Shown here piece by piece: positions 3,201 to 45,318 of a stretch of 64,000 nt of DNA. Source of the stretch: Indolivaga alginatilytica (GTDB taxonomy: Bacteria; Bacteroidota; Bacteroidia; Bacteroidales; Dysgonomonadaceae). The stretch lies in assembly GCF_003201355.1 (NCBI RefSeq), contig NZ_QICL01000005.1, forward strand, positions 62,001 through 126,000, written 5' to 3'. The translations under genes were made by a program, and so were the position numbers. Each line of letters opens with the position of its first letter. Within the stretch, counting starts at the first letter, position 1. The notes under the pieces were generated by a model. It saw nothing but the letters and a program-made list of their open reading frames with translations. It ran no database searches and was not told the DNA's origin.

Positions 3201-3389
3201 CATAAATTCTTAAATAAAACACCACTTCGTACTTGTCAGATATATGTGTATACAAATAATTTGGCTACGTGGACTGAGTATTCGGGTTATGATCCCGAAA
3301 TTGGAGGTAGTGTATTGACTCCGGGAAGAGATAATTCGGCATATCCACGTTATCGTGAGGTTGGATTTGGAATCAATGTTGGATTTTAA
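204..3389 (+). CDS. SusC-like TonB-dependent outer-membrane glycan transporter
   Basis: Imports oligosaccharides across the outer membrane using TonB energy, working with the SusD lipoprotein encoded next. The 1061-residue protein has a signal peptide ending near residue 32 (LSAQ), a carboxypeptidase-regulatory-like beta-sandwich (about 34-112), a VVVVGYGVQKK segment near 115-126, a plug domain to about 235 with the signature IESIEILKDA, and a long beta-barrel ending in aromatic Phe. Length and order are normal for SusC. It is the first gene of the locus and carries a repeat-family hairpin in its leader. The SusC/D family assignment is firm. The glycan specificity cannot be read from sequence, though the downstream enzymes suggest an acidic heteroglycan. 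Confidence 0.96.
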   Translation: MKEKENKKPKLMSRWLVLFLFVFCLGHTLSAQTLNVTGVVNDDSGEPMIGVTVTVKGTTKGTITDLNGGFTLACQKGDVLSFVYMGYNNQDVKIDSNKKLVIVMTENTRLLDEVVVVGYGVQKKRDITGAITSVDSKLIEERSPINIYDALQGAAPGLQVTSASGAPGGSNMIQVRGASTFDDSGVSPLYIVDNVITSSIDNINPLDIKSIEILKDAASASIYGARSANGVIIITTKSGESGKPKVDLRYLRSYSSMANKLPQVNAFDRVLNMQASDFSNPSKTLEKFSAVTDSVGLVNSVNNFYQDLLTQTAIRNDINLGISGGTDKLKYMASFGYVGDEGIIKTSYNDRITGRYNMDFSGWDNLKFTTRVSFSNNKTNSINEGNVFQTAMRRPPNMIVYYPDGTFAPHHAMGGNRNPVQELYGRDNKRERFQGVIYQGMDWKFTNYLSLSANMQGDLGLTRNTQFTSKELDSNADESLRKNTAADKTTFNQRYSGEIYLTFNKTLGKHHVLSAMAGSSVETGKNEYLNFEGSDLVTESIHTMNMASLDLAKTYTTAEDYALASLFGRVGYTYKDKYIFNGSVRYDGSSRFGPKERWGAFPAFSLGWRFSDEAFMNWASNVVSDAKLRGSWGVTGNDRVGYYEYQTLFTSGEYSYNGTSGVVPVSTYGNPSLHWEETKQTNLGLDLNLFNGRVTFIADYYIKETSDLLSTMSLPYTTGYDKMRVNLASVENRGLEFSLSGYPVMTKDFKWNTTVNWWTNKNKITDLAKEDYVESSLWLVAKGKAAGQWYGYNNEGVYEYDFSNAYTTDYKTRLNPVLKRDENNNVIIGLNGQPILEGYVLPDGSKYSGDVKQILQNGVAAAGGDVIWENIADKDGNYDNKIDDNDRKVLGSGNPDWFASWDNNFTYKNFSLSFNLYLSWGGKVYNKLKQYYTTWGGNTHMQHPEYIRTGWKYQGQITPWYALDTRARKTQNRQELNSQYLEDASFLRLKNIRLTYNVDHKFLNKTPLRTCQIYVYTNNLATWTEYSGYDPEIGGSVLTPGRDNSAYPRYREVGFGINVGF

Positions 3390-3478
3390 GTAAATGAAAG
3401 TATTTAATAATATGCTTTCTAATTATAAGAGGTTATAGTTTTCATACTTGACAAAGTAATAAAAAGGTCTGCGACCTT
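3387..3478 (+). repeat. Dispersed ~91-bp intergenic repeat, copy B (between susC and susD)
   Basis: Full-length forward copy. Its first bases (TAAGTAAATGAAAG) include the stop codon of the upstream susC. Its end hairpin AAGGTCTGCGACCTT lies at 3464-3478, 15 nt before the susD start. The left half closely matches copy J in the urease operon (both read TAAGTAAATGAAAG, then T-rich TTTAATAATAT-CTTTC). It therefore fills the whole susC-susD junction. Confidence 0.8.
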
Positions 3479-3493
3479 AAAATAAATAAAACA

Positions 3494-21966: not shown

Positions 21967-23106
21967 ATGAAAAAGACAATACTCTCAATCTTATTTTTCA
22001 CAATGGGCATTTTCTGTATTTCAGAATTGTATGCCCGGGAAAATACAGATTTGAAAAACTGGCCAAAAGGAAAAGATCCTGAAACTATTGGGTTGCTGGT
22101 TGCAAATCGCTTTGTAGAAAGTCCGCATAATAGTTTCAGACCACCTGCACCTCCCAAATCAATTACTTACCCAGAAGTATGTGCATGGTATGGAGCCATT
22201 AAATTTGCAGAAGTAACTAATAATAAAGTATTGCTCAAAAAATTGGAGCAGCGTTTTTTACCTTTCTTCGATGATGAAAAGCATTTAGTACCCAGACCGT
22301 TTCATGTAGACTATTCGGTTTTTGGTACAGTTCCTTTAGAGCTTTATAAACACAACAAAGATCAGCGATTTTACGATATGGGTATGCGCTTTGCCGATGC
22401 ACAATGGACACTACCTGTAGATTCTCCTGAAGTGAAGAAAAATGAATATCAGAAGTTTTTAGATCAGAATCTTACATGGCAGACTCGCTATTGGATTGAT
22501 GACATGTATATGATAACAATGGTACAATCTAAGGCATATCATATTACAGGAGATAAAAAGTATATAGAGCGTGCTGCTCATGAGATGGTTATTTATCTGG
22601 ATACCATTCAGCGACCTAACGGACTGTTTTTCCACGCACCCGACGCTCCTTTCTTTTGGGGGCGGGGCAATGGTTGGATGGCGGCCGGTATGAGCGAGTT
22701 GCTGACTTCTTTAGATAAGAATAATAAAGACCGCTCGACTATTATGGCATCTTACCTAAAAATGATGGAAAGTCTAAAAAAGTACCAGAGACCCGATGGA
22801 TTGTGGGGGCAGCTTATAGACAAACCCGAATCGTGGGTAGAAACATCAGGTTCGGCCATGTTTGCATATGCTATGATAATGGGTGTAAAAAACGGATGGC
22901 TCGATAAGAATGAATATGCTCCTTCGGTTCGTAAGGCATGGCTCGCTTTGATTGATTATATCAATGAAGACGGAGATATATCGAACGTCTGTGAGGGTAC
23001 TAATCGCAAGAATGATTATCAGTATTACCTTGACCGTAAGCAAAAAACAGGAGATATGCATGGGCAGGCTCCTATGCTATGGTGTGCGTGGGCATTATTA
23101 AAATAA
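21967..23106 (+). CDS. GH105 unsaturated uronyl hydrolase
   Basis: Hydrolyses the 4,5-unsaturated uronic acid left at the non-reducing end by polysaccharide lyases, starting with hydration of the double bond. The 379-residue protein has a signal peptide (to about LYA) and a six-hairpin alpha-barrel. RYWIDDMYMI carries the expected catalytic Asp178, RGNGWMAAGMSELL and [14 protein letters not shown] are typical family segments, and the C-terminus ends GQAPMLWCAWALL. Length is normal for GH88/GH105, and the RGNGW and VETSGSAM features favour GH105. Whether it prefers unsaturated galacturonyl or glucuronyl ends is not visible. Two further unsaturated-uronyl hydrolases are encoded downstream. Confidence 0.92.
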   Translation: MKKTILSILFFTMGIFCISELYARENTDLKNWPKGKDPETIGLLVANRFVESPHNSFRPPAPPKSITYPEVCAWYGAIKFAEVTNNKVLLKKLEQRFLPFFDDEKHLVPRPFHVDYSVFGTVPLELYKHNKDQRFYDMGMRFADAQWTLPVDSPEVKKNEYQKFLDQNLTWQTRYWIDDMYMITMVQSKAYHITGDKKYIERAAHEMVIYLDTIQRPNGLFFHAPDAPFFWGRGNGWMAAGMSELLTSLDKNNKDRSTIMASYLKMMESLKKYQRPDGLWGQLIDKPESWVETSGSAMFAYAMIMGVKNGWLDKNEYAPSVRKAWLALIDYINEDGDISNVCEGTNRKNDYQYYLDRKQKTGDMHGQAPMLWCAWALLK

Positions 23107-23130: not shown

Positions 23131-25269
23131 ATGAAGAAAATCACTATTTCGACCATCTTGAGTCTGGTTGTATTCTTATTACAAGCCCAGTCGATTCAAT
23201 GGACTGAAGAGTTTCCCGGGGTCTGGAAAGGTTCGTTTGGTAAGCCCGATTCCTATACCTTGCTGAGTGCTGCCGGCAGTAAACCAAAATCGGATGTATT
23301 GAGTAAATTGCAAGAAACAGCATTCCCGTTGAATAAAACAGAGATTCATGCTGAGATAATAGATGGAAAAACGTATTTGAGATTTCCTCTTATGAAAGAC
23401 GAGCAGATATATGGCTTGGGACTTAATTTTCAGACAGTACATCAACGAGGTAAGATACTCAATTTGCATGTAGACCATTATGGAGGAAAAGACAATGGAC
23501 GGACACATGCTCCCGTGCCATTTTATGTTTCTTCGGAAGGATATGGTATACTAATCAATTCGGCTCAATACCTCACATTTTACGTTGGAACAGGTGTCAG
23601 AAAGGATTCGAAGAATCCACCTGTGGCAAAAGATCGTAATACGGATAAAACATGGAGTTCGCGTCCTTATTCGGATGCCGTTGAGGTGTATATTCCTGCC
23701 GAAGGGATAGAGTTTTATGTATTTGCAGGAGAGTCGTCTTTAGATGCCATCAAAAAATACAATCTGTATTGCGGGGGCGGCACACTTCCTCCTCGTTGGG
23801 GGCTGGGTTTTACGCAACGTGTACAAAAATTATATACTGCGGATGATGTAATGAAAGAGGCTGCCGAATTCGAAGAAAAAGGATACCCCCTCGATTTTAT
23901 CGGCTTGGAACCGGGCTGGCAAACCAAAGCTTACCCATGTTCTTTCGAGTGGGATAAAAGTCGTTTTCCTGATCCTGCGGGATTTACAAAGAAGATGCTG
24001 GACAAAGGTATTCGCCTCAATTTATGGACTAATCCGTATGTTTCTCCCGAAGCTTCAATAAGTAAAGAGATAGAACCATACACAGGTTCTCATACTGTAT
24101 GGTGTGGTACTGTACCCGATTTGAACCATCCCGAAGCGAAAAGAATATTTGCCAATCAATTGGATAAAGATCAGGTGAAAATCGGAATCAGTGGTTATAA
24201 AATTGATGAAGTAGATGGTTACGACTTCTATTTATGGCCCGACATGGCAACTTTTCCATCGGGAATTAGTGGTATACAAATGCGTCAGACTTATGGTGTA
24301 TTGGCTCAAAAATTAACAGATGGGCTGTATCGGAAAGAAAATACCAGAACATTCGGTCTTGTAAGAGCTTCCAATGCAGGAGCTAATAATCTGCCTTATG
24401 TGATCTATAATGATTATTACAGTCATCAAGATTTTATAACAGCTTTGGTAAATAGTGGATTCTGCGGAGTGTTATGGACCCCTGAAGTGAGAGGTTCAAA
24501 AACGGGTGAAGAGTGGTTGCGTAGATTTCAGTCTGTAACTTTCTCACCCATGGCTATGATTAATGCATGGTCGAGCGGAACCAAGCCTTGGTCGTTTCCC
24601 GAAGTTGCCGATCAGGTAAAATATTATGCAGAATTGCGTATGCAGTTGATGCCTTACTTCTATTCTGAATTTGCAAAATATCATTTTCAAGGTACTCCAC
24701 CTTTTAGGGCAATGGCTTTGGAAGAAGGTTTCAGAAATGAATCAAAAACTGTTGCAGGTAGCCAGAGTTTAGAGGATAATCCTTACTTGGAAGCTGTTAA
24801 TAAAGAAGTGAAAGATCAGTATATGTCAGGAGAATATTTATTGGTTGCACCCTTGTTTACAGGACAAAGTACACGCAAGGTTTTACTGCCTCAAGGCAAT
24901 TGGTATGACTTCTACACAGGAGAATTAGCAGGCAATGGACAAGAAATAACAGTAACTCCCGGATTAGACAGGATTCCGGTATATGTGAAAGACGGTGGTA
25001 TTATTCCATTGATGGAAACCCGTTTACATGCTCCGGCTGCGGGTGAAAAAGTGAATATGGAGATTCGCCATTATGGCACTAAAGAAAGTTCATACAACCT
25101 GTATGATGATGACGGTGTGAGTTTCGATTATGAAAAAGGAGCATATTCTTGGAGAAAGATCGAAATTAAGAAAGACAAAAAAGGACAGTTACAGGGAAGT
25201 ATATCTAATGCTGTAAAAGGAAAACCTGATAATATAGCAAAAGTTGGTTTTCGCTTTATGAGTAAGTAA
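23131..25269 (+). CDS. GH31 family alpha-glycosidase, divergent
   Basis: Retaining alpha-glycosidase of 712 residues with signal peptide (to about LLQAQ). N-terminal sandwich with QIYGLGLNF and HAPVPFYVSSEGYGILIN, then the barrel opening PPRWGLGFTQRVQKLYTADDV. GYKIDEVDGYD supplies the probable nucleophile Asp359. The family's usual acid/base segment (W-S/T-G-D-N) is replaced by YNDYYSHQD, so this is a divergent subgroup. C-terminal sandwich with GIIPLME and LYDDDGVSFDY. Family members cleave alpha-glucose, alpha-xylose or alpha-galactose. With several galactosidases around, galactose is possible, but this is a guess. Confidence 0.85.
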   Translation: MKKITISTILSLVVFLLQAQSIQWTEEFPGVWKGSFGKPDSYTLLSAAGSKPKSDVLSKLQETAFPLNKTEIHAEIIDGKTYLRFPLMKDEQIYGLGLNFQTVHQRGKILNLHVDHYGGKDNGRTHAPVPFYVSSEGYGILINSAQYLTFYVGTGVRKDSKNPPVAKDRNTDKTWSSRPYSDAVEVYIPAEGIEFYVFAGESSLDAIKKYNLYCGGGTLPPRWGLGFTQRVQKLYTADDVMKEAAEFEEKGYPLDFIGLEPGWQTKAYPCSFEWDKSRFPDPAGFTKKMLDKGIRLNLWTNPYVSPEASISKEIEPYTGSHTVWCGTVPDLNHPEAKRIFANQLDKDQVKIGISGYKIDEVDGYDFYLWPDMATFPSGISGIQMRQTYGVLAQKLTDGLYRKENTRTFGLVRASNAGANNLPYVIYNDYYSHQDFITALVNSGFCGVLWTPEVRGSKTGEEWLRRFQSVTFSPMAMINAWSSGTKPWSFPEVADQVKYYAELRMQLMPYFYSEFAKYHFQGTPPFRAMALEEGFRNESKTVAGSQSLEDNPYLEAVNKEVKDQYMSGEYLLVAPLFTGQSTRKVLLPQGNWYDFYTGELAGNGQEITVTPGLDRIPVYVKDGGIIPLMETRLHAPAAGEKVNMEIRHYGTKESSYNLYDDDGVSFDYEKGAYSWRKIEIKKDKKGQLQGSISNAVKGKPDNIAKVGFRFMSK

Positions 25270-25398: not shown

Positions 25399-27342
25399 AT
25401 GAAAAATATAATTGTTGGGATAATTTTTATTCTAATGTTCACCTCTTGTTTGGGTAAGAAATCGGAATGGGTACTTTCTTCCCCCGATGGAAATGTAACG
25501 ATTACCGTTCTTAACAAGCAATCGTCAGAAGGAAATGATGCTTCACTCGTGTATCATGTGACTTATAATGGAAAAAAAGCAATCATGGAGTCTCCTCTGG
25601 GAATTGATAGGGAGGACGAACAATTTTCCACTAATCTTAAACTCGATTCGGAAAGTAAACCGATTCTGATTGATGAAAAATATACCCTCAAGTCAGGAAA
25701 AAAACTCAATGTCCATAACTATGGAAATGAGCAGACTCTGACTTTTAAGAATTCAAACGGGAAAAGTGTACAATTGATAATGAGAGCATATAATGACGGA
25801 GTTGCATTTCGTTATAAATTCCCCGAAAGTGACACTAATAGTTTTAAAGTAATGTCAGAAAAGACGGGTTTTGCTCTTTCTACAGAGGGTAAAGCTTGGA
25901 TACATCCTTATGACTGGAATAGCCGATTCAAGCCGAGTTATGAACAGTACTGTGAAAATGAAATAGCTATTGGTACCGATTCTCCTAATCCTAAAGGATG
26001 GGCATTCCCTATGCTGTTTAATACAAATGGGCTGTGGGTAATGGTTACCGAAGCTGTTTTGGATGGTTCTTATTGTGCAACACATATAAGTAGCACAAAA
26101 GACGGTTTGTATAAGATACGGTTTGCAGAGAAAGAAGAAGTTATCATTCCTGATGATCCTGAACCGGTATCAAACCTACCATGGGCTACACCTTGGAGGG
26201 TAATTGCCATCAGCAATAATCTGGCAGGTATAGTAGAGACTAATATCGTTCAAAACTTGAATTTACCATCGGTTATTTCGGATGAATCATGGATAAAACC
26301 CGGCCGTTCGAGTTGGAGCTGGTGGTCGAACGGTGCCTCTGCGAGAGACTATAAGACACAGATTGAATATGTCGATTTTACAGCAGATATGGGATGGGAA
26401 TATATGTTGATAGATGCAGGCTGGCCTGATATGGAAGGCGGCACTATGGAAGATGTAGTTAAATACGCAAATAGTAAAAATGTTGGTGTGTGGTTATGGT
26501 ATCATTCGGGAGCAGGTCGTTCGCAAGATACGATAAATAGTTTTAATCTGATGGCTGTGAAAGACGCACGTAAAGCCGAATTAACACGTATTCAGGAGCT
26601 GGGGGTAAAGGGTATAAAGGTAGATTTCTTTGATACTGATAAGCAAAATATTGTAAAACAGTACTATGCAATATTATCGGATGCTGCCGATCATCATATT
26701 ATGGTCAATTTTCACGGGTCTTCACTTCCTCGAGGTCTGGAAAGAACTTATCCTAATCTGATGACAACCGAGGCCATAAAAGGTGCTGAGTCTTTTGGTC
26801 GTCAAGTGGCTTGTGATAAAGCGCCCCGTCATAATACAACAGTGCCTTTTACACGTAATATGGTAGGATCGATGGATTATACTCCGGTGACTTTCTCGAA
26901 TAAGATTCGTCAGGGAGTAGAAGCTTTTAATGTTACTTCATATGCCCATCAATTAGCTCTTTCAGTGATTTTTGAATCGGGTGTCCAGAATTTCGCAGAC
27001 AATTACAAATCGTATGAATCTCTTCCCTCTGCTCCTCTAAATTTTTTAAAGGGGATACCTGCAGCTTGGGACGAAACCAAACTACTGGATGGCTACCCGG
27101 GTGATTATGTGGTTATGGCTAGACGAAAAGGCGATACTTGGTATATAGGTGCAATCAATGGTAAGAATGAAAGCCGAGAAATAGAACTTGATTTGTCATT
27201 TCTTTCTCCTGCCAAGAATATAGAAATAATCTCAGATGGTACAGAGAGAACACAATTTACAGAACACGCAGAAATAGTAAAAGAGACCTTAAGCATTCAT
27301 GTTTTACCCTATGGAGGGTTTGTTGCAACAGCCAAACCTTAA
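25399..27342 (+). CDS. GH97 alpha-glycosidase, retaining type (probable alpha-galactosidase-like)
   Basis: A 647-residue lipoprotein (lipobox FTS-Cys17) of family GH97. N-terminal super-sandwich (about 25-275), then the barrel opening SSWSWWSNGASARD and YMLIDAGWPD, and GIKVDFFDTDKQ with Asp409, at the place where retaining members carry the nucleophile. NFHGSSLPRGLERTYPN and TTEAIKGAE follow, with Glu458 a candidate acid/base. GH97 inverting glucosidases such as SusB use Glu catalysts instead, so the Asp suggests the retaining galactosidase-like branch. This specificity call is inference from family knowledge. It has its own repeat hairpin leader and precedes the second susC. Confidence 0.88.
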   Translation: MKNIIVGIIFILMFTSCLGKKSEWVLSSPDGNVTITVLNKQSSEGNDASLVYHVTYNGKKAIMESPLGIDREDEQFSTNLKLDSESKPILIDEKYTLKSGKKLNVHNYGNEQTLTFKNSNGKSVQLIMRAYNDGVAFRYKFPESDTNSFKVMSEKTGFALSTEGKAWIHPYDWNSRFKPSYEQYCENEIAIGTDSPNPKGWAFPMLFNTNGLWVMVTEAVLDGSYCATHISSTKDGLYKIRFAEKEEVIIPDDPEPVSNLPWATPWRVIAISNNLAGIVETNIVQNLNLPSVISDESWIKPGRSSWSWWSNGASARDYKTQIEYVDFTADMGWEYMLIDAGWPDMEGGTMEDVVKYANSKNVGVWLWYHSGAGRSQDTINSFNLMAVKDARKAELTRIQELGVKGIKVDFFDTDKQNIVKQYYAILSDAADHHIMVNFHGSSLPRGLERTYPNLMTTEAIKGAESFGRQVACDKAPRHNTTVPFTRNMVGSMDYTPVTFSNKIRQGVEAFNVTSYAHQLALSVIFESGVQNFADNYKSYESLPSAPLNFLKGIPAAWDETKLLDGYPGDYVVMARRKGDTWYIGAINGKNESREIELDLSFLSPAKNIEIISDGTERTQFTEHAEIVKETLSIHVLPYGGFVATAKP

Positions 27343-27385
27343 TTGAAAACCAAAATCTAACTTATTACAATCTAATGCATGTGTT

Positions 27386-30300
27386 ATGAATAAACAGGAA
27401 CGAATGAGATTGAAAAAAAAATGTACACTATTTATTGTATGCTTTTTTTGTACTGCTTGTTTGATGGCTCAATCCTTCAAAATAAGTGGAAGTGTTATTG
27501 ATGAAAAATCAGATCCCGTTATCGGTGCGACTATCTCTATAAAAGGAACAACCACCGGAACGGTAGCAGATTTGAACGGAAAGTTTTCATTGGATGTACC
27601 AAATGAAAATTCTATACTGGTTGTTAGCTATGTGAGTTATACAAAACAAGAAATAAAAATCGGATCAAAACGAGTTTTTAATATTGTATTGAAAGAAGAT
27701 CAGCAACTATTAGATGAAGTAGTCGTTGTAGGATATGGTGTTCAAAAGAAGGCTAACTTAACAGGGGCAGTAGGAGCGGTTAATAGTAATGAATTGAATT
27801 CTCGTATTGCACCCAGTACTTCCTCTCTGCTTCAAGGTCGAATGGCCGGATTGCAGGTTACGCAGAACTCAGCCATGCCCGGTAGTGAGAACGTAGAGAT
27901 GCGTATTCGTGGTATGGGAACGTTCAGTTCAGCAGGAAATAATCCCCTTGTGCTGATCGACGGAGTGGAAGGTGATATGAATAAACTGAATCCCAATATG
28001 ATTGAAAGCATTTCGGTTCTAAAGGATGCTTCATCCGCCGCCATTTATGGATCGCGAGCTGCTAATGGTGTAATACTTGTGACCACAAAGGCGGGAACTG
28101 AGGGACGCCTTAATATAGAATATAGTTTTAACTATTCGATGCAAAAGCCGACGAAACCTATGGATCGTATTACGAATTCTGTAGAGTATATGGAAACAAT
28201 CAATAAGGCAATCGATTTCTCAAAGAATATAAATGCGGCATGGAGATATACGGACGAAGAGATTGATCGTTATAGAAGAGGTCAAGATCCGAATGATCCG
28301 ACTTATAATCCGGCACAATATCCTAATTGCGATTGGATGGATTATTTGATTCGAGACGCAGCACTTAGTCAGCACTTCCTCAGTATTAATGGAGGTAGAG
28401 GAGGAACAACATTTAATGTGGGGCTAGGTTATTTAAATCAAAAAGGTCTTCTGTTGGGTACAGATTATGAGCGATACGATGTACAGGTAAACTTCAAATC
28501 GTCTTTAACTAACCGGGTGACTTTTGGTACTAATATATCAATGAACTATGGTGTTCGTCATGATACTTCATTTAATGATACCGATTTAGGTAATATGAAT
28601 GCTTCACGCGATCAGATGCGAAGTGCATATGCTGCTTCGCCACTGATGACACCGCAATTACCTGACGGTAGTGGACGTTGGTCTTCGTATGCCTATGAGA
28701 ATAAGGGCGGAAATAAGAACCCGATCGCTAATGCTATTGCAGGTGGAGGACAGCTGATAGATAGCAACTATATACTGGCAAGTACATTTATGAATGTGAA
28801 GATTGTTGACGGACTTAGTGCAGAGGTCAAAGGTGCGGTTAAATTTGCAGAAAACCAGTATAAGATTATGAATGCAACATGGGATGGAGCGGTATTTTTA
28901 CCGGATGCAAATGGTGTTTTTGAAAACCGTCCTTCTACTTCAATGCAAAGTTTTCGCCAGCGAAATAACCGTTCGAAACAATATACACTTTTTAGTACTC
29001 TTAATTACTTGAAGACTTTCGATAAAGTACATAATATTACTGCAATGGCGGGATATAGTCAGGAAAGTTATAATTATGAGCAAATCGAAGGTTATCGTAC
29101 CGGCTATACTTCAACCGATATGTGGTATTTGAAACCGGGTCCGACTCCGGCTCAGACCAACGATAGTGATGTGAATGAGTGGGCTTTAATGTCATTCTTC
29201 GGACGAGCCAATTACGATTACGATGGTAAGTATTTAGTGGAAGCAAATGTTCGTCGTGATGGAACTTCACGTTTGCCCAGAAATGGTCGTTGGGGAACAT
29301 TTCCTTCCGTATCAGCAGGATGGAGAATCTCTGAAGAAGATTTCATGAAAGGTCTTTCCTATATGGATAACCTTAAGGTGAGGGCTTCATGGGGACAATT
29401 AGGTAATCAGAATATAGGTAATTATCCTTATCAGGATATGCTTGAGAATGACAATTACAATTTCGGAGGAACAATGACAAGTGGCTATACCAGTAAATCG
29501 ATAGTAAATACGAATATCAAGTGGGAAACTACTACGTCTACTAACGTTGGGTTAGATTTTGGCTTTCTGGGGAATAAACTGTATGGTTCGGTAGATTGGT
29601 ATCGCAAATATACTACTGACATTCTTCGCACATTACAAGTGCCTAATTTTGTCGGGATCGCAGGGCCTACGGTAAATCAAGGTGAAATGGAAAATATCGG
29701 CTGGGACTTTAGTTTGGGACACGATAATAAAATTGGAGACGTTCGCTATAGCATCAGAGCTAATTTGGATACCTATAAAAATACCTTGCTAAACTATGGT
29801 GCCGATGAGATAAACGGAGTGAATATACGCAGAGAAGGTTTGCCTTGGAATACTTATTATGTAATGGTTCAGAATGGGGTTTATCAGAATCAGGCAGAGA
29901 TAGACAACGAAGGAGTTGTGAGAACTTATGCAGGTGCAGTAACTATCAAGCCCGGTGATATCAGATATACAGATATAAGTGGTCCTGACGGAGTACCCGA
30001 TGGAGTTATTGATGCCACTTACGACCGTGCTACGGTATCGGGAGCCTTCCCTAAATTTAATTACGGTTTCAATATTAATGTTAGTTATAAGATGTTTGAT
30101 CTTAGTTGTTTCTTCCAAGGAGTTCAGGGACGAAAACTCTATGTCTCATCTTGGGGTATTTCTCCTTTCAATCAAGCTTCTGCTCCTCCCGTATTTTGGA
30201 GGGACGCATGGGATGGCGAAGGCACATCAAACTATATACCGCACATCTACATGGATGGCTATGGACCGATGCAAGCCGGTTACTCCTCTTTCTTCCTTAG

Positions 30301-30535
30301 AGATGCATCTTATCTGCGTATGAAGAGCATTCAAGTTGGTTATAATGTACCTGCTATATGGGCGAAGAAACTATTTGTTCAAAATGCTCGAGTATATTTC
30401 TCAGGTGATAACCTATTGACATTTACTAATTTCTTCGATGGACAGATAGATCCTGAACGTACAGGACAGGGATCGAGCGATGCAATGTATCCTCAGGCGA
30501 AGATATTTACATTTGGTTTAAAAGTAACATTTTAA
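27386..30535 (+). CDS. SusC-like TonB-dependent outer-membrane glycan transporter (second pair)
   Basis: Second glycan importer of the locus, 1049 residues. Signal peptide ends near CLMAQ, followed by a carboxypeptidase-regulatory-like domain (KISGSVIDEKSDPVIG), VVVVGYGVQKKANLTGAV, and a plug with IESISVLKDASSAAIYG and AANGVILVTTK. The barrel includes GRANYDYDGKYLVEANVRRDG and ends in Phe (GRANYDYDGK is shared with many SusC barrels). A start 18 bp downstream (Met7) is also possible. It differs clearly from the first SusC, so the two pairs probably accept different fragments of the same glycan or different glycans. Confidence 0.96.
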   Translation: MNKQERMRLKKKCTLFIVCFFCTACLMAQSFKISGSVIDEKSDPVIGATISIKGTTTGTVADLNGKFSLDVPNENSILVVSYVSYTKQEIKIGSKRVFNIVLKEDQQLLDEVVVVGYGVQKKANLTGAVGAVNSNELNSRIAPSTSSLLQGRMAGLQVTQNSAMPGSENVEMRIRGMGTFSSAGNNPLVLIDGVEGDMNKLNPNMIESISVLKDASSAAIYGSRAANGVILVTTKAGTEGRLNIEYSFNYSMQKPTKPMDRITNSVEYMETINKAIDFSKNINAAWRYTDEEIDRYRRGQDPNDPTYNPAQYPNCDWMDYLIRDAALSQHFLSINGGRGGTTFNVGLGYLNQKGLLLGTDYERYDVQVNFKSSLTNRVTFGTNISMNYGVRHDTSFNDTDLGNMNASRDQMRSAYAASPLMTPQLPDGSGRWSSYAYENKGGNKNPIANAIAGGGQLIDSNYILASTFMNVKIVDGLSAEVKGAVKFAENQYKIMNATWDGAVFLPDANGVFENRPSTSMQSFRQRNNRSKQYTLFSTLNYLKTFDKVHNITAMAGYSQESYNYEQIEGYRTGYTSTDMWYLKPGPTPAQTNDSDVNEWALMSFFGRANYDYDGKYLVEANVRRDGTSRLPRNGRWGTFPSVSAGWRISEEDFMKGLSYMDNLKVRASWGQLGNQNIGNYPYQDMLENDNYNFGGTMTSGYTSKSIVNTNIKWETTTSTNVGLDFGFLGNKLYGSVDWYRKYTTDILRTLQVPNFVGIAGPTVNQGEMENIGWDFSLGHDNKIGDVRYSIRANLDTYKNTLLNYGADEINGVNIRREGLPWNTYYVMVQNGVYQNQAEIDNEGVVRTYAGAVTIKPGDIRYTDISGPDGVPDGVIDATYDRATVSGAFPKFNYGFNINVSYKMFDLSCFFQGVQGRKLYVSSWGISPFNQASAPPVFWRDAWDGEGTSNYIPHIYMDGYGPMQAGYSSFFLRDASYLRMKSIQVGYNVPAIWAKKLFVQNARVYFSGDNLLTFTNFFDGQIDPERTGQGSSDAMYPQAKIFTFGLKVTF

Positions 30536-30638
30536 GATGCTACACCTCTTATTGTCTGTCTAAATATAAATATAAATATAAGTTATGGTTTTAATACATG
30601 ACATTAAATTATAGCTTTTACTTAATACCCGTATAAAA

Positions 30639-32243
30639 ATGAAAAAATATACTATAATAACCTGCTTTTTATTTGCTCTGATTCTAGCCGGCTGCCAGGA
30701 TTTTCTGGATAAAGACCCTCTTGATCAGTTGAGTAAAGATAAGTTTTACAAAAATGAGACGGAGATACAGCAAGGTCTGGTGTCGACCTATCTTCGCTAC
30801 CGTTCACAATTGATTGGAGGAATGGGAGCCGGCAACGGTTCAGCAATAGACATGGAAGCACTAAGTGACAATGCTTATTCATCCTCAGGATTCCAAAGTT
30901 TGCAAAATATAGCTCAGGGAGGTATGACATCCACAACGGGAGGAGCCGTTACGGGTTTATGGAATGATGCCTGGCAAGGAATCGCCTATTGTAATTACTT
31001 TTTGGATAATCTGGAAAGACCCGAAGTAAAGAGTTTAGTAACTGACGAAAGATATAAACAATACAGAGGGGAAGCCCTTTTTAATCGTTGTTATTTTTAT
31101 TTTTTATTGATCCAGAACTATGGTGATGTTCCTTTTTTGACTCATGCTGTTGAACTTGATACTCCATATATGAATATGAAGAGAGAGTCGGTAAGTACTG
31201 TTGTTCCCCAATTACTATCGGATATGGATTTGGCTATTGAAGGACTTCCCTTAAAGGCTTATACAGATGGCCATGCAGTAAAAGGATCGGCGGTTTTGCT
31301 TAAAACACGTATCTTGATGTATAACAAACAGTATGCAGAGGCTGCTACCACTGCATATTCTTTGATTGGGAATACTAAAAATCCACATAAAATAGTTGAC
31401 GATTATTCAGGTATATTCTTTGGAGACCAAGCAAATAATCAGGAAATAATGTTTTCTGTTTGGTATGCCTCGCCGGATGATATGCACCAGTTTGATCAGT
31501 TTACAGGAAGTCGTATGTCTTGTTACCCATTGTTCGATTTGGTGAAAGCATATGAAGAAAAGTCTTCGGGTGTGAGAGATCCTCGCCTATCAATGACTAT
31601 TTTTATGGTAGGCGATCCTTGGATAATGTATAACGGAACTACAACTAAAACATTCCAGTACAAAACTAAAAACCCCGTTGCCGGAGGTCCTGATATAATA
31701 CTTGACCCTACCATATATTCGTACTCCGGTCAGCAATTTCCTCCTAGAGACGGTACTCCCCGGACATCGGAAGGCAATATCCCGGTAAGCTCTTTAGCTT
31801 GGAAAAAAGGAGTGAATCCGGCTCTCGTTCAGGCTAGGGACAGGATAAGTTCTCAACATTGTGTATTAATGCGTTATGCCGATTTACTTCTATTGTATGC
31901 CGAAGCTATGTTTGAATCGGGAAAAGCTTCTGATCCAACAGCATTGAAGGCTCTTAATGAGGTTCGTGCCCGTAAAGGAGTAGAGATGCCCCCTAAAACC
32001 GAATTAACCCGCGATAATATACGTAACGAGCGTCGTGTAGAATTGGCATATGAAGGGATACGTTACTATGATATCAAACGTTGGGACATTGCAAAAGATG
32101 TAATTCCCAGAAAGGTCCCTAATCCGACTCTTGCTGCTGCACAGCAAATCAGATGCTTATGGGATGGTAACCTATGGCCTATACCTCAGAATATTATGAA
32201 TATAATGACTCCTGCCGGATGGGTGAATAATGCACCTTATTAA
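30639..32243 (+). CDS. SusD-like surface glycan-binding lipoprotein (second pair)
   Basis: Partner of the SusC at 27386-30535. The 534-residue protein has lipobox LAG-Cys19, then QDFLDKDPLDQLS. Core segments are FNRCYFYFLLIQNYGDVP and MRYADLLLLYAEAMFESG, with NERRVELAYEGIRYYDIKRW near the C-terminus, the standard RagB/SusD closing region. The 103-bp gap from susC holds no copy of the hairpin repeat, unlike the first pair. No SusE/F-type lipoprotein follows, since the next gene encodes a multi-module enzyme. Confidence 0.95.
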   Translation: MKKYTIITCFLFALILAGCQDFLDKDPLDQLSKDKFYKNETEIQQGLVSTYLRYRSQLIGGMGAGNGSAIDMEALSDNAYSSSGFQSLQNIAQGGMTSTTGGAVTGLWNDAWQGIAYCNYFLDNLERPEVKSLVTDERYKQYRGEALFNRCYFYFLLIQNYGDVPFLTHAVELDTPYMNMKRESVSTVVPQLLSDMDLAIEGLPLKAYTDGHAVKGSAVLLKTRILMYNKQYAEAATTAYSLIGNTKNPHKIVDDYSGIFFGDQANNQEIMFSVWYASPDDMHQFDQFTGSRMSCYPLFDLVKAYEEKSSGVRDPRLSMTIFMVGDPWIMYNGTTTKTFQYKTKNPVAGGPDIILDPTIYSYSGQQFPPRDGTPRTSEGNIPVSSLAWKKGVNPALVQARDRISSQHCVLMRYADLLLLYAEAMFESGKASDPTALKALNEVRARKGVEMPPKTELTRDNIRNERRVELAYEGIRYYDIKRWDIAKDVIPRKVPNPTLAAAQQIRCLWDGNLWPIPQNIMNIMTPAGWVNNAPY

Positions 32244-32447: not shown

Positions 32448-35417
32448 ATGAATCTAATGAAGAACCTACAAAAAATATCAAGTCTATTCTCCTTACTTGT
32501 TGTCTGTTTTCAAGTAAATGCTCAGGCTGGTCGAACGGCAAATGCCGATGGCAAAACAGATACCTATAAATTGATAGAATCCTTTGGTTATGGAGTTGAG
32601 GTGCCAGATTGTAAACATCCCATCAAGCATATTACACAACAATATGATAGTGAACTGCAAAAGCAAGTATTTGTTTTTACACTTCATGCTCAATTAGATG
32701 ATGATCGTTGTGGAGCACAGGATAGGCAACGCACAGAAATAAAGACCTTCGGGCCATCGCCCGAATCGATGAAAGGGCATAGAGGAAAAAAACAGCAATA
32801 TAAATGGAAGTTTAAGCTGGATAAAGATTTTCAACCGTCGCCTAACTTTTGCCATATTCATCAGATAAAAGCCGATGCCGGACCTAATGCAGGAGCACCG
32901 ATCGTAACGCTTACACCTCGTTTCAAAGGTGGTAAAGAGGTGTTGGAATTTAACGTTGTTTCTCCCTCAAATGTATCTACAATTCTGGCAGAAGAAGACT
33001 TGTCGTTGTTTAAAGGAATCTGGGTAGAGGTAACAGAAACAATATTGCATGATAACCCCGGTAGGATAGAACTGGAAATTAAAAGAGTATCGGATGGTAA
33101 AAGACTTCTTTATGGTAAAAGCAATAAGGTCGATATGTGGCGTGACGGAGCACGATTCAACCGTCCGAAGTATGGGCTTTATCGTAGTCTTAAAGAGCCA
33201 TCCTATTTAAGAGATGAGTCTGTTTTGTTTGCAGATATAGAATTTATAGAGATATCAGATAAGAACCATACTCGAAGAACAAATACGGGATGGGAGCTGG
33301 CTACTGATATTGAAAGAGAGTTGCTTGCCGTTTTACCACAGCAAACATTTAATGTGGTAGACTTTGGTGCAGTGGGTAACAATACAAACGACTGCTCAGA
33401 AGCTTTTGCCCATGCCATAGAGAAATGTAACAAAATGGGAGGTGGTACTGTTTTGGTTCCAAAAGGGATGTACAAATTAAATACACCTCTCTATTTGTTG
33501 TCAAATATTCAGCTTCTACTATCAGAAGGATCAATATTATCTTTTGATCCTCAAATGATGTCTGAATTTCTGATTAGTTCCGATAATCAAGAGAATATCA
33601 GATTAACGGGACCCGGAAAAATTAGAGGTAATGGCAAAGGAGCAATATGTTTATCGGATAGTCGAAATATACTTATCAGTAACTGTGATTTTGAGTCTTC
33701 GGGCGATAATATTACGATTCGGGCTAATACCAAAAGTGAGAATATTATTCTAAAGAACAATTATTTCAGAAAAAGTGGAGAAAGTGCAATTACTCTTGGT
33801 GGCAGTACACCAGGAGTAATTCGGAATATATTTGCCAATCAAAATACTTTTGGGGTCATTCCTAAATATATTGTACATATGTACGGCACAGATAGGGGTG
33901 GACTTATCGAAGATATTTGGATGAGAGATAATTACTCGGAAGGTTATCCTTGTGAAACAGCTTTTCAATTAGAGCAGTTAGTAAGTGATTCATCTAAAAG
34001 TGCGAATATTCCTATATTATGGTATAGCTATTTTGAGAATTTCTCGAACTTGAATGCTACTAGTAAAGGAATATCCTTTACCTCTGTATCAAAAACGACA
34101 CAGCCTATCGAAAGTATGTGGTTTAAGAACATACAAATAATAAATGCTACAGAAATTATTAACAGACATACAACGAGAGATATTTATGTGGAAAATGTGA
34201 GTGCAAAACCTATTGATTTGTCTGATATTACAGAAACAGGTGTAGCGAATGCCTATTTACCTTATGCACCAGTACCCCAATTTTGGTCGGTGACTGCTGC
34301 ACAAAGTACTATGGCACGTTATCCTGATTTTACGAAAGCATATTGGAATGCATGGACATATGTTAATAGTTACATGGCTTGTGTTTTCGAACGTTTGTAT
34401 AAAGCTACGGGAGACGACACGTATCTTAAATATATAAAAAGTTATATAGATAATTTTATAGATGAAGACGGTAATTTTATTGCTGTCACCAATTATAAAG
34501 GCTTATCGAGAATACCTAATGTATTTGATAATCTGGATAATATGATGCCCGGAAATACGCTTGTCATGTTATACGAATATTATAAAGAACCTCGTTATAA
34601 AAAAGCAGCCGATTATATATTTGCATGTCTGAAAAACTATCCCCGAAATAATGATGGCGGTTTTTGGCATGGTAAAGGTCTTCATGGGCAGATGTGGATT
34701 GATGGTGTTTTTATGGGGCAAATGTTTTTACTTCGATATGGTCGTTCCATTGGTGATGCAGAATATGCTTATGATGAGGCAGTCAAACAAATAGTGGCTT
34801 ATGCTAAAAGGGGGGAGCAAGGTAATTCGGGACTCTATGTACATGGTATTTATGAGTCGGGGCATGGTGACCGCCTTTGTCAATGGGCAGATCCCTCTGG
34901 CGGTAAATCGTCCGAAGTATGGGGAGAAGGACTGGGATGGTATGCTTTGATATTGGTTGAGGCATTAGAGACTCTCCCAAAGAATCACAAGGGATACAAT
35001 GATGTTAAAGATATATTCGTTCGTTTGGCAGAAGCCTTGAAGCGTACCCAAGACCCTAAAACCGGAGGCTGGTTTCAGGTTGTGGATAAAGGAAACAGAC
35101 CCGATAACTGGATAGAAACTTCGGGAAGTGCTATGTTTACATATGCATTGCAGCAAGGTGAAAATCTGGGAGTTCTGAACAAAAAGGACTACGAATTGGT
35201 TGTTAAAGATGGATACACTTCCATTGTTAACCACGCCAAAATAAACGAAAGAGGATTGGTTGATATCCATGAAGCATGTGATGGTGTGGGGGTGCAAGAA
35301 AACTATGAAAAATATATTAACTACAAAAAATCTCTGAATGCTAAAGAAGCCTATGTTGGTTTTGTTTGGGCTACCGAAATAGTAGAAAGAGATGCAATAA
35401 AAAAGAATCTAAAATGA
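32448..35417 (+). CDS. Three-module secreted enzyme: jelly-roll lyase + GH28-like beta-helix + GH105
   Basis: A 989-residue exported protein (signal to about VNAQ) joining three carbohydrate modules. Residues about 30-285 resemble beta-jelly-roll lyases of the PL7/PL13/PL20 type: RQRTEIK (Arg95, Glu97), CHIHQIK (His138, Gln139) and KYGLYR (Lys241, Tyr245) are the expected active-site strands. Residues about 300-600 form a GH28-type helix starting [11 protein letters not shown]. Its catalytic region reads SSGDNITIR, with one of the paired Asp replaced by Asn and no Gly-His-Gly, so it may be inactive or binding only. Residues about 610-989 are a GH105 barrel with [10 protein letters not shown] (Asp752), EGLGWYAL and [11 protein letters not shown]. 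The lyase would make unsaturated ends that GH105 removes. The stop codon overlaps the next start (ATGA). Confidence 0.8.
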
Positions 35418-38011
35418 AAAAAACACAACTTGTAAAATCAGGTTTAGTTGCACTTTCTATCTTCTTTACAATGGGGAGCTGCAAGACCGAAGAAGTTAAA
35501 AGTAACGACCTTAAGCTTTGGTATGATCGTCCGGCACAGGTTTGGGAAGAAGCACTGCCTTTGGGTAACGGACGTATTGGTGCAATGGTATTCGGAGAGC
35601 CTCAGAAAGAGCTTTTCCAGTTGAACGAAAATTCGCTGTGGTCGGGATATCCCAAAGATGCTAATAATCCTAAAGCGGCAGGTGCTTTGCCTGCGGTTAG
35701 GGAAGCTATCAACAATGGCGATTATGTAAAAGCATCTTCTATCTGGAAAAATAATGCACAAGGACCTTATACGGCTCGTTATTTACCGATGGCAGATTTA
35801 CACCTTACAACATTGTCGGGTAATGATATTACAAATCTGTATCGTGATTTGAATATCTCTGATGGAACATCTACGGTAAGTTTCGAATCAAACGGAGTCA
35901 AATACAAACGGACGGCTTTTATATCTTATCCTGACCAAGTGATGGTAATCCGTCTCGAAGCAGATAAGAAGCAATCACTGTCATTTGATGTTGCTTTAGA
36001 CAGTAAACTCAGATATATATCTAAAGCTAAAGAAGATACTTACTTAGTATTAAAAGGAAAAGCTCCTAAACATGTAGCGCACAGATCGGATGAACCAGAA
36101 CAAATAGTATATGATGAAGAAAAAGGTGAGGGCATGAATTTCGAAGTTCATGTAAAAGTCTTAGCTGAAGGTGGAAAATCTACGGCTAAAGATAGTATTC
36201 TGAGCATTAATAATTCGGATGCTGTAACTCTGATTCTTTCAGCAGCTACAAGTTTTAACGGATTCGATAAATCTCCCGGTCTCGAAGGTAAAGATCCTTC
36301 TTTACAAGCTACGGCTAATATGGAAGCAGCCTCAAAGAAATCATATGCTGAGCTATTAAGCAATCATACAAAAGATTACAAATCGTTATTCGATAATGTA
36401 GTTTTAAATCTTGGAGAAGTAAAACCGGAAAAAGAAGCTTTACCGACTGATAAAAGACTGGAACAGTTTTCGACCGATGATAGTGACAATGGGATGGTTA
36501 TCTTATATTACCAATATGGTCGTTATCTGACTATTGCTTCTTCTCGTTCAGGCTCAATACCTTCTAATCTTCAAGGATTGTGGAATCGCCATGTACAACC
36601 TCCTTGGGGTTCTAATTATACGACAAATATAAATACGGAAATGAACTACTGGCCTACTGAATTAACCGGCTTGCAGGCTTGTCATGAGCCGCTTCTTAAT
36701 TTTGTGAAGTCTCTATCTATTAATGGACGAAAAACTGCACAGATAAATTACGGCATGGATACAGGCTGGCTGGCTCATCACAATACAGATGTGTGGGCAC
36801 AGACAGCTCCCACCGGTAATTATAATATAGACCCAAGGGGTTCGCCACGCTGGTCGTGTTGGCCAATGACTGGCGTTTGGTTTTCTCAGCACTTGTGGGA
36901 GCATTACGCTTTTGGTGGCGATAAACAATATTTAAAAGAAAGTGCATACCCTCTCATGAAAGGAGCAACCGAATTTGTTTTGCAATGGTTGCAGAATGAT
37001 GAATCGGGTTATCTGGTAACAAATCCGTCTTCTACTCCCGAAAATTTATTTAAATACAAAGACAAAAACGGCAAGGAGCAGACGGGAGAGATAAGCAAAG
37101 CCACTACTATGGATATGGCTATGATTTGGGATTTGTTGACCAACTGTATTGAGGCTTCAAGAGTACTGAATATAGACAGTGACTTCCGTAAGACTTTAGA
37201 AGAAACAAAGGAAAAACTATATCCGCCACATTTGGGTTCGAAAGGACAGTTACAGGAATGGTATAAAGATTTTGAGGAAGTAGATCCACAACATCGTCAT
37301 GTATCGCATTTGTTCGGATTACATCCGGGTAAAGAAATATTACCTCGTGTAACACCCGAAACAGCTGCGGCAGCTAAACAAACTTTATTATTGAGGGGCG
37401 ATGGCGGCACAGGTTGGGCTATGGCTTGGAAAATAAATTTTTGGGCACGTCTCGAAGATGGAAATCATGCTTACTTGATGTTGAAAAACGGTTTAAGGCA
37501 TGTGGATGCAACCGATGTTTCGATGAAAGGTGGAGGTACATACTCTAATTTGTTTGATGCTCATCCTCCTTTCCAAATTGATGGGAATTTTGGAGGAACG
37601 GCAGGTGTTACCGAAATGTTGCTGCAAAGCCATGCAGGAGAGATTTTCCTTTTACCGGCGTTGCCCGATAATTGGAAAGACGGTTCAGTAAAAGGACTTA
37701 GGGCGAGAGGCGGTTTCACTATAGATATGGAATGGAGAAACGGTAAAATAACGAAGGCTGTTATTTATTCTGCTTTGGGAGGAAATTGTAGGGTTAGAAC
37801 TTTGGCTAAAGTATCGGCAAAAAGTTTTGATCTGAAATTGGCGGAAGGCAAGAATCCGAATGAATTTTATTTTATAGGAAAAGCTCCCGAATTAGTCAAG
37901 GGTGACAATGCCTCGCCATTACAGAACTTAAACCTGAAAGAAACATCATTAGTAGATTTTTCGACAGAAAAAGGAAAGAGCTACGAACTGCTAAATACAT
38001 CAGACAAATGA
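35414..38011 (+). CDS. GH95 alpha-L-fucosidase / alpha-L-galactosidase
   Basis: Inverting enzyme removing terminal alpha-L-fucose (or alpha-L-galactose). I take the ATG at 35414, which overlaps the upstream stop by ATGA and gives a clean lipoprotein signal (lipobox MGS-Cys23, 865 residues). Earlier in-frame starts lie inside the previous gene. Family segments: [19 protein letters not shown] near the N-terminus, [31 protein letters not shown] with the catalytic Asn pair, and [19 protein letters not shown] with the catalytic Asp. Length is normal. It is translationally coupled on both sides, since its own stop overlaps the DUF362-like start in the same way. Fucose against L-galactose preference cannot be decided here. 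Confidence 0.93.
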
Positions 38012-39450
38012 AAACTAAATTATTGGGAATATTTCTTGTTGCAGTTCTTCATGTAGGAACTCTGACTGCTCAACACGGGCATCCTGATCAGTTGACTACA
38101 AAACCTGCCACTAAATACGATTGGAAGCCGGATGCTTCTAATAAACCGATAGGCGATGCAAAAGGAATCTATAGGGGTAGGGTTTCGTGGGCTCATATGC
38201 CGGGTGTTGCACATTGGGCTGGAGATTGGAAATCGATGGAGAACTCATGGTGGTCTGATCGAAGTACTGATCAGGATGGAGTTAACAGAATGTTAGGTAC
38301 TATTATATGTTCGCTTTCGGGGCACAATAAATATGAAGATGCATGGCAAGCAATTTTTAAGTATCATAACCGTACTTTAGGTCGTAATAATTCGGGTTAT
38401 AAAAAAGGAGAGATAGTTGCTATCAAATTAAATATGAATGGTACCTATCGTATAACCAGACATACCAATGCCACGGATACTTCTCCGCAAATGGTGTATG
38501 CTATGATAGAGCAACTGGTTAAATACGGGGGAGTGGATGCAAAAGATATTGTAGTTTACGATGCCAAAAGGGATATATATCCTGAAATATTAATGAAAGT
38601 ATGGTCTGATTACAAAGATGTACGTTTTCTACAATCAAAAGAACCGGGCGAAGAGCAAAAGCATCCTTATTACGGAGAGTTTCGCAATATCGAAACTCCT
38701 CAATGGGTACAGGCTATAGAGTATTCTAATGGGCAATACGACAGGGCACGTAATATTCCCAAGCAGATAAAAGATGCAACTTATCTGATCAATCTGGCTT
38801 TATTGAAGGCACACTCTTATCCGTATTCTAATCAGGAAAAAGGAGATGAAGGGCAAACTGCAGTTACTATGATTGGTAAGAGTCATTATGGAACTATACA
38901 GCAACCCGATGAACTTCATGCCATTATAAATACCAATAAAGAAGGTGTTGCAAATGCCTTTTCTCCGATGATCGATATGGCTGCTTCACCCGAATTAGGA
39001 GCGAAATCGATATTATATATTCTCGAAGGTCTGTATTGTGCCCGCAAGCATAATTCGAATCCTGTACACTTTCCGAATGCACCATTTAACAATCAGGTTT
39101 ATCCGTATGCTAATCCGGAGTGGCCTTCCTCGATATTGGGTTCTCTGGATATGGTAGCATTAGATTCTGTGGGCCTGGATATTTTATATTCTCAAAGCCA
39201 GAATAATAAAGACCCTGAAAATGATAACAGACCATCTATAATGATTCGAGAAAATGCAGATGATTATCTGCATGAAATGGCTTTGGCCGGCGATAATCCT
39301 CCATCGGGAACAGTCTATATGCAAGGGGGGAAGAAGGTTGAAAGTCTGGGAGTTCACGAACACTGGAATAATGACCAAGATCGTCGGTATTCGCGTAATC
39401 TTGATCCTAAAAATGGGCGGGGTATTGAGTTAGTCTATATTAAACTATGA
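38008..39450 (+). CDS. Secreted DUF362-like protein of unknown function (paralogue 1)
   Basis: A 480-residue exported protein (signal to about LTAQ). The core resembles DUF362: [15 protein letters not shown], then [16 protein letters not shown] and [14 protein letters not shown], a Rossmann-like pattern. Flanking regions are specific to this type: [18 protein letters not shown] and [16 protein letters not shown] near the start, and [23 protein letters not shown] and [11 protein letters not shown] near the end. A paralogue lies at 45341-46822. The start codon overlaps the GH95 stop (ATGA), so translation is probably coupled. I do not know its activity. Export and PUL context suggest a role in handling the glycan, perhaps a sugar or substituent not covered by the known glycosidases. 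Confidence 0.7.
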
Positions 39451-43767: not shown

Positions 43768-45318
43768 ATGAAAAAGCTTTCTTATGTATTATATATTTTG
43801 GTATTGTCTGTCACTACAGCATTTGCAAAGAATTACAATGTGAAAGATTTCGGTGCTGTAGGTGATGGGCGGTATCTGGATTCTCCTGCAATACAAAAGG
43901 CGATAGATGCTTGTACGGCAGATGGGGGAGGAATGGTTATCATACCCAGAGGAACTTATCTTGGGGCAACAATAGTTTTGAAAGATAATACTACTCTGCA
44001 TCTCGAAGAGGGTGCCTTATTGTTGGGTACTACTGATCTGAATGCTTATGATCTGATCGATCCTTTTACCGATGGTTTGGGGGTGGATGTGGGACGTACT
44101 TTTATTGCGGCTGTAGATGCAAAGAATATTACTATTGAGGGTAAAGGAATTATTGACGGACAAGGTTCTGCCCTTAAGGCTAAACAAATAGAAACAGACA
44201 ACCGTCCGGAAGGACAACGTTGGGGAGCAAGACCTTTTTTGTTACGTATTGTTAGATGTCAGGGGGTAAAAGTACAGGATGTAACGCTGAAATACTCGGC
44301 TTCGTGGACATCTCACTACGCTCAAAGTTCGGATATTGTGATAAGTAACGTAAAAATAACAAGCATTGGAGTTGCTCATAATGATGGGATTGATATCGAT
44401 GGTTGCGAACGGGTCAGAATAACCAACTGTGATGTGGAAAGTGGGGATGATGCTCTTTGCTTCAAAACTACATACAGTAAAAATCCATGTCGAGATATTG
44501 TGGTTGATGGTATGAAATTAAAAAGCAATCAGGCGGGAATCAAGATGGGAACTGAGTCGATGGCTCCTTTTGAGAATATCAAGATTTCTAACTGTCACAT
44601 CTATAATACGAATAACGGAGGAATTAAACTTCTAACGGTTGACGGTGCCCATTTAAGAAATATACTGATTGAGGATATTACCATGGATAATGTCAGAACA
44701 CCGATGTTATTCCGTCTGGGTTCGAGATTAAATGTGTTCAGAAAAGAACGGGATCAGCAACAACCTACCGGAACATTCGAAAATGTAGTTATCCGTAATG
44801 TTAAAGCAAAGAGTGCTGAAAAAACTCAGCTTACTTCTGCTTCGGGAATATTAATAACAGGTGTTCCCGGACATCTTATTACGAATCTCACATTGGAGAA
44901 TATCGAAATAGCATTGCCCGGTGGTGGTACAGTTGAGGAGGGTAGGCATGAGGTTCCTGAGGCAGTCAATGAATATCCCGAGATAAAAACATTTGGACCG
45001 ACCATTCCTGCCTATGGTGTTTGGGCGAGACATGCAGATGGTTTAAAGCTCAATAATATCACTTTCAAAGTTGAAAATCCCGATTTAAGACCTGTTTTCG
45101 TTTTTGAAGATGTGAAAAATGTATCGATTAAAAAGCTGAATGCGGAGGCATTCGAAGGTTCAGAGTCTGCTATTCGGATAGAAAATTCTGAAAACGTTCA
45201 AATCGCTATTTCGGGTTTGAGAGGGAAATCTCAAAAACTATTGGAAGTGGAAGGGGCGGATAACACTATCAGTTTGCATGGTAAGCAAATACTGAAAACG
45301 ATTGAAGGTGCGAAATAG
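43768..45318 (+). CDS. GH28 family glycoside hydrolase (polygalacturonase type)
   Basis: Inverting hydrolase acting on galacturonic acid containing chains in most known members. The 516-residue protein has a signal peptide (to about TAFA) and the parallel beta-helix start YNVKDFGAVGDG. Catalytic acids are visible as HNDGIDIDGC (Asp206) and VESGDDALCFK (Asp227-Asp228). The usual Gly-His-Gly is replaced by QAGIKMGTES, a variation seen in many Bacteroidota GH28 proteins of exo-acting type. It is the only one of the GH28-like proteins here with the full Asp triad in a classical context. Exact linkage is unknown. Confidence 0.88.
   Translation: MKKLSYVLYILVLSVTTAFAKNYNVKDFGAVGDGRYLDSPAIQKAIDACTADGGGMVIIPRGTYLGATIVLKDNTTLHLEEGALLLGTTDLNAYDLIDPFTDGLGVDVGRTFIAAVDAKNITIEGKGIIDGQGSALKAKQIETDNRPEGQRWGARPFLLRIVRCQGVKVQDVTLKYSASWTSHYAQSSDIVISNVKITSIGVAHNDGIDIDGCERVRITNCDVESGDDALCFKTTYSKNPCRDIVVDGMKLKSNQAGIKMGTESMAPFENIKISNCHIYNTNNGGIKLLTVDGAHLRNILIEDITMDNVRTPMLFRLGSRLNVFRKERDQQQPTGTFENVVIRNVKAKSAEKTQLTSASGILITGVPGHLITNLTLENIEIALPGGGTVEEGRHEVPEAVNEYPEIKTFGPTIPAYGVWARHADGLKLNNITFKVENPDLRPVFVFEDVKNVSIKKLNAEAFEGSESAIRIENSENVQIAISGLRGKSQKLLEVEGADNTISLHGKQILKTIEGAK

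Follow-up and report, generated by a model that had tools for sequence, protein, structure and literature searches.

The window (the whole 64,000-nucleotide stretch of DNA analysed here) contains one gene in which a probable signal peptide, a jelly-roll lyase module, a GH28-derived beta-helix and a GH105 module are joined in a single chain of 989 residues. Judged from its sequence and modelled structure, this protein is probably an exported and likely periplasmic two-step enzyme, in which the lyase would act first and the GH105 module second, with the helix as a non-catalytic spacer or binder. Predicted folds, residue conservation, orthologues, synteny and the existence of two kinds of middle module form the direct basis of this reading, from which we infer activities, substrate, binding and channelling.

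Architecture of the fusion protein and its genomic context

The fusion gene and its segments, all on the forward strand, are as follows.

32448..35417, +: fusion gene, ATG start, 989 aa (signal peptide, lyase, GH28-derived helix, GH105)
32448..32525, +: probable signal peptide, aa 1-26, ending in VNAQA and without a lipobox (by eye)
32526..33254, +: jelly-roll lyase module, aa 27-269, PF14099-like (Pfam, alignment, fold)
33267..33332, +: alpha-helical linker, aa 274-295 (predicted in the full-length model)
33336..34271, +: truncated GH28-type beta-helix with catalytic residues lost, aa 297-608 (Pfam, alignment, fold)
34278..35414, +: GH105 module, aa 611-989 (Pfam, YteR alignment, tree, fold)

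The initial annotation described a secreted protein joining the three modules in this order. Pfam and the AlphaFold/Foldseek folds agree on the order, and the residues named are found where they were placed (Tyr245, SSGDN at 417-421 and Asp752). The word "secreted" holds for export, based on a signal peptide recognized by eye, but exported and probably periplasmic is the better term. Similar N-termini, ending in AQAG, occur in Dysgonomonas HGC4, Dysgonomonas PF1-14 and the standalone lyase of locus L053. The full-length model, built from a 26-row alignment, has a pLDDT of 84.3 and a pTM of 0.54, so that the positions of the modules relative to each other are not fixed. In a Foldseek search with this model, GH105 structures rank first, the predicted (alpha/alpha) barrel resembling YteR (TM 0.86 by target); the GH28 exo-polygalacturonase 3jur and the galacturonidase 5olp are among the first 13 matches, and lyases of PL14 and PL7 lie further down the best 50 matches listed. 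Structure prediction, which had been proposed as a check, yielded a jelly roll with lyases as its first fold matches and a GH105 fold.

The window represents a large polysaccharide utilization locus (PUL) encoding an HTCS regulator, GH29, GH31, GH97, GH95, GH36 and GH2 enzymes, one GH28, one GH28-like gene, an alginate-lyase-type gene and three GH88/105 genes, the fusion counted. A SusC/SusD-like pair adjoins the fusion on its upstream side, a second such pair is recognized by BLAST similarity at 204-5026, and a further TonB receptor is located at 18137. The genes most relevant to the fusion are the following.

21967..23106, +: another GH88/GH105 gene
23131..25269, +: GH31 gene; in HGC4, PF1-14 and the metagenome-assembled genome (MAG) Pq454_bin51 the fusion is immediately preceded by a relative of this gene
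25399..27342, +: GH97 gene
27386..30535, +: SusC-like transporter; genome G087 has a Plug/CarbopepD protein with 75% identity
30639..32243, +: SusD-like protein; G087 has a SusD-family protein with 77.5% identity
35414..38011, +: GH95 gene, whose likely ATG overlaps the stop codon of the fusion (ATGA)
43768..45318, +: separate GH28 with its Asp residues

The gene order is GH105, GH31, fusion and GH95 in HGC4, and GH31, fusion and GH95 in PF1-14. The GH97-SusC-SusD block that lies between GH31 and the fusion in the window (25399-32243) is absent from this position in both genomes, and likely reflects, as far as gene order can indicate, an insertion into or a loss from the PUL. SusC/SusD relatives (49-59%) are present just upstream of a broken copy of the fusion in MAG C.2_15 (locus L064).

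A related PUL is found in another genus of the family (g9, genome G087), where lyase and GH105 are separate genes and SusC/SusD are 75-78% identical to those of the window. Its genes run lyase, GH97, SusC, SusD, GH95-like, GH105 (63.5%) and then a GH105 of the fusion clade, the last preceded by a stretch that Pfam does not match and that appears beta-propeller-like by eye. The G087 lyase is just 37% identical to that of the window and the GH97 29%; this lyase may therefore not be an orthologue. Fusion-clade GH105 modules preceded by an N-terminal region that resembles propeller hydrolases by eye were also observed at L170:322-2586, L172:361-2586 and L173:1477-3936, and the region preceding GH105 in L170 has no Pfam match.

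Several other genes of the PUL are conserved elsewhere. DUF362 proteins are encoded at 38008-39450 and 45341-46822, with relatives (59-72%) in PULs of another genus, and in PF1-14 (L051:1416-4352) relatives of the GH28 gene at 43768 and the DUF362 gene at 45341 form a single open reading frame (ORF) of 979 aa. The 663-aa protein encoded at 41685-43676 is conserved at 69-72% in PF1-14 and Pq454_bin51, matches neither Pfam nor NCBIfam at E 0.001, and is possibly a new CAZyme of this PUL.

Distribution of the fusion and its two kinds of middle module

The unbroken fusion was identified in the window genome, HGC4, PF1-14 and Pq454_bin51. MAG C.2_15 retains the module order, but its lyase is interrupted by a stop codon with the remainder in another frame. 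An assembly or chance artefact is ruled out because the fusion recurs in independent genomes. In the GH105 tree, the four unbroken copies and the broken one form a fusion clade of five with 99/98 support, with a long-branch warning for L004 and two more rows meeting the fused group.

The lyase family itself is far more widespread than the fusion. Ten of 101 genomes of the family match the lyase, three of them (the window's own genome, HGC4 and PF1-14) in open frames of 992-1012 aa, and in G023 the lyase occurs by itself (291 aa). In a sample of 395 genomes of the phylum, the lyase part is matched in eight others, in frames of 289-438 aa and in one of 1121 aa, and this longest frame has no GH105 match. 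In a scan of genome_contigs, 532 of 579 matched stretches encode a lyase relative, and among the best 80 of these 532 lyase and GH105 share one ORF in three (L063 of HGC4, L065 of PF1-14 and L067 of Pq454_bin51). A GH105 profile matches at 10 of these 80 lyase loci within the fetched flank, four of the 10 being fusion loci. Locus L066 encodes a lyase alone that is 79% identical and falls inside the fusion clade of the lyase tree (which holds 14 of the 75 loci other than the fusion loci and L066, with L064 represented by its N-terminal piece only), and the lyase can therefore exist without the other modules. None of 264 plasmid records covers 80% of the query; 20 phage records match the fusion, and the best five listed of these 20 match in the GH105 part only.

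The initial annotation had linked the two activities as successive steps, and a pathway link between the lyase family and the GH105 clade is supported: the two genes adjoin each other in L092, and a related PUL of a second genus carries both, each as its own gene. Within the 101 family genomes, the lyase is present in 10, the GH105 clade (E below 1e-120, a threshold of our choice) in seven and both in six, more than expected (Fisher p 1.1e-6, kinship ignored). After removal of the three fused genomes, both occur together in three of 98 (Fisher p 9e-4, kinship again ignored).

A second kind of middle module is present in Pq454_bin51. Its fusion of 1194 aa carries a full-length GH28 in the middle (PF00295, 86.4 bits) with the Asp residues kept, and this GH28 shares 66% identity across 489 aa with the one encoded separately in the window (43768-45318). 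This middle module is also the sole close copy found in the Pq454_bin51 genome, the next best match being 39% identical. In the middle-module tree, which comprises 14 GH28 loci, the window's GH28 and L067 and does not give which middle came first, the middle of Pq454_bin51 clusters with the separate GH28 of the window (100/99), and the helices lacking catalytic residues (hereafter dead helices) make up a clade by themselves (100/100). Because the two clades lie on opposite sides of a 99/99 split, a single GH28 origin shared by the two middles is rejected. The slot is therefore occupied either by an intact GH28 or by a dead helix, and in the latter case the PUL has an intact GH28 at another place.

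Joined genes are not confined to the fusion, and it is conceivable, if somewhat unlikely, that the fusion arose neutrally, through gene joining that is common in these PULs, and that a single chain brings no functional gain. Such joining is illustrated by the GH28-DUF362 ORF of PF1-14, by the unassigned N-terminal region joined to GH105 in three of four g9 loci, and by two GH28-matching open frames of Pq454_bin51 (1840 and 2110 aa). The persistence of one order, lyase-middle-GH105, throughout the fusion clade of five, with two different middles in the slot, argues against this.

The lyase and GH105 modules

The first module is matched by PF14099 (Polysacc_lyase) at aa 84-247 with 24.6 bits, below the cut-off of 29.9. 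Three orthologues exceed this cut-off (34.7 in PF1-14, 30.5 in Pq454_bin51 and 31.6 in HGC4), which suggests that the module is a divergent member of the PF14099 family. A model of the module from a 15-sequence alignment is all-beta (pLDDT 86.6), and the first ten matches of a fold search against the PDB are heparin lyase I (PL13) or alginate lyases, with a best E of 3.9e-8 and TM by query of 0.51-0.61 over these ten; the PL20 structure 2zzj is absent among the best 50 matches listed. The tyrosine motif proposed for the lyase proved to be conserved: at least 14 of the 15 aligned sequences of the family (90% class) retain both Tyr245, within K-Y-G-L-Y-R, and His138, within H-I-H-Q-x-K, and hhalign pairs the former motif with K-F-G-I-Y-R of heparin lyase I relatives at a probability of 11.9%. 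By analogy with PL7 and PL13, Tyr245 and His138 are presumably catalytic. PF08787 (PL7) has no match in the 101 family genomes, a result that is uninformative because the control is equally silent. Taken from fold and conserved residues, lyase activity by beta-elimination is probable.

PF14099 lyases, including PL20 glucuronan lyase (PMC10483417) and the PL13 heparin lyase I, share the jelly roll and the K-x-G-x-Y-R motif with this module, and the Pfam family with its orthologues above the cut-off; the sequence of the module is too distant for assignment to PL20 or PL13. Lectins and other binding domains are jelly rolls as well (PMC10916295), and lectins, GH131 and toxin binding domains do appear further down the best 50 fold matches listed. 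In ulvan pathways, a dehydratase producing the substrate of GH105 is reported in PMC8511951. Queried against solved structures, the lyase profile gave no relative, its sole match being unrelated (E 0.39). Even so, we consider it unlikely that the jelly roll is a binding module, or that it generates the unsaturated end by some other route, such as that of a dehydratase supplying GH105, given that a lyase-type set of Tyr, His, Arg and Lys is conserved in at least 14 of 15 family members and that the first ten fold matches are lyases.

The C-terminal module matches PF07470 (GH88/GH105) at aa 613-967 with 258.4 bits against a cut-off of 26.6. Alignment to YteR (E 2.8e-55) places Asp752 at YteR Asp143, the residue that is Asn in PDB 2gh4 (an entry titled D143N), and Asp697 at YteR Asp88, which we take to be the partner of the catalytic Asp143. 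The catalytic Asp that had been pointed out for this module is accordingly intact. Asp697, Asp752, His799 and Trp825 are invariant in all five sequences of the fusion clade, the broken L064 copy included. The module resembles YteR (PDB 1nc5 and 2gh4), an unsaturated rhamnogalacturonyl hydrolase of family GH105, in fold and sequence and has its catalytic Asp; YteR consists of one module, whereas the GH105 described here is the C-terminal part of a 989-aa chain. The module may thus hydrolyse unsaturated uronyl residues, as its model and alignment suggest.

The middle helix and the proposed function

The middle module matches PF12708 (pectate-lyase-like helix) at aa 301-509 with 41.8 bits, and a right-handed beta-helix is predicted, confidently at aa 301-460. 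The best NCBIfam model, lying mostly over the helix, is alpha-galacturonidase BT4155 (NF049892; 85.4 bits against a cut-off of 800), and PF00295 (GH28) has no match in the window protein at E up to 1. GH28 enzymes presumably rely on three catalytic Asp residues, in Asn-x-Asp-Gly and Asp-Asp. In an alignment with seven chosen GH28 loci, the window's separate GH28 and L067, the Asp of Asn-Asp-Gly and both Asp of the pair are present in all nine full-length GH28 comparators. Neither the Asn-Asp-Gly Asp nor the leading Asp of the pair survives in any of the four dead-helix copies; the second (Asp420) is kept in three of them and is Asn in PF1-14. Compared with GH28 (BT4155 model; PDB 5olp), the module shares the N-terminal strands and the helix fold, but 88-120 residues are gone in two deletions (17-18 and 71-102 residues) immediately before the lost Asp positions. 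The initial annotation had cited loss of a paired Asp and of Gly-His-Gly; the former stands, and the latter is not diagnostic because the His is also absent in four of the nine full-length GH28s, the Asp losses and deletions being the diagnostic features. The helix as a catalytic GH28 is rejected on these losses and deletions.

Identity between the window and PF1-14 is 47% for the helix, 74% for the lyase and 79% for GH105. Between the window and HGC4, omega is 0.188 for the helix (95% 0.105-0.289), 0.065 for the lyase and 0.103 for GH105, a contrast from one genome pair in which a lower helix dS (0.26 vs 0.41-0.43) forms part of the difference; the helix value exceeds that of GH105 in 95% of bootstrap draws. 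By these comparisons the helix is the fastest diverging of the three modules, with constraint apparently relaxed, yet still under purifying selection. That selection, the confident fold and the retention of Asp420 in most copies would be compatible with a helix that is still catalytic, perhaps in an altered role through Asp420 alone, which is very unlikely in view of the two Asp positions missing from every copy, the Asn in PF1-14 and the deletions.

The favoured reading is the two-step enzyme with a non-catalytic helix. SusC/SusD would import an acidic (uronic-acid) oligosaccharide, which the jelly-roll lyase would cut by beta-elimination using Tyr245, His138 and neighbouring basic residues, so that the newly formed non-reducing end would bear a 4,5-unsaturated uronate. 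The GH105 module (Asp752, Asp697) would then remove this residue; that lyases leave a residue cleaved by GH88/GH105 is described in PMC8511951. The dead GH28 helix might provide a rigid spacer and perhaps an oligosaccharide-binding surface, with the GH28 step supplied in trans by the separate GH28 gene of the PUL. In Pq454_bin51, the GH28 with its Asp residues in the slot would give a potential three-activity chain. A tentative and rather doubtful extension is a periplasmic assembly line with an exchangeable middle slot, in which the dead GH28 would have become a glycan-holding scaffold that hands the product of the lyase on to GH105. In the relative, a working GH28 of the same PUL would have taken the slot, so that one chain would carry three consecutive activities. 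One GH28 of the PUL is nearest to a rhamnogalacturonidase model (280.8 bits, below the cut-off of 500) and, together with the YteR-like GH105, gives a lead towards an acidic glycan of rhamnogalacturonan or gum type as candidate substrate, in preference to plain glucuronan.

Chains combining lyase, hydrolase and accessory modules are already known from the GH5+PL31 enzyme CelAly and from PL7+GH16 enzymes (PMC13235733). These enzymes attack two different polymers, whereas the two activities of the fusion, if active, would be consecutive steps on one product. Among the matches listed from the full-text literature, in which subscription journals are mostly uncovered, no description of the lyase-helix-GH105 order was found, and this order appears to be a new arrangement among multimodular CAZymes. 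If active as proposed, the fusion would be a natural one-chain design whose second step removes exactly the residue made by the first. The pair of dead-helix and GH28-intact forms offers a natural comparison of the middle module as spacer, binder or catalyst, and the fusion also points to a large lyase family without a solved relative found here. The GH28-like matches within the two long open frames of Pq454_bin51 (genome G495) lie at C168:33942-35309 (1840 aa) and C129:23460-25592 (2110 aa), which suggests that this genome may encode further large CAZyme fusions.
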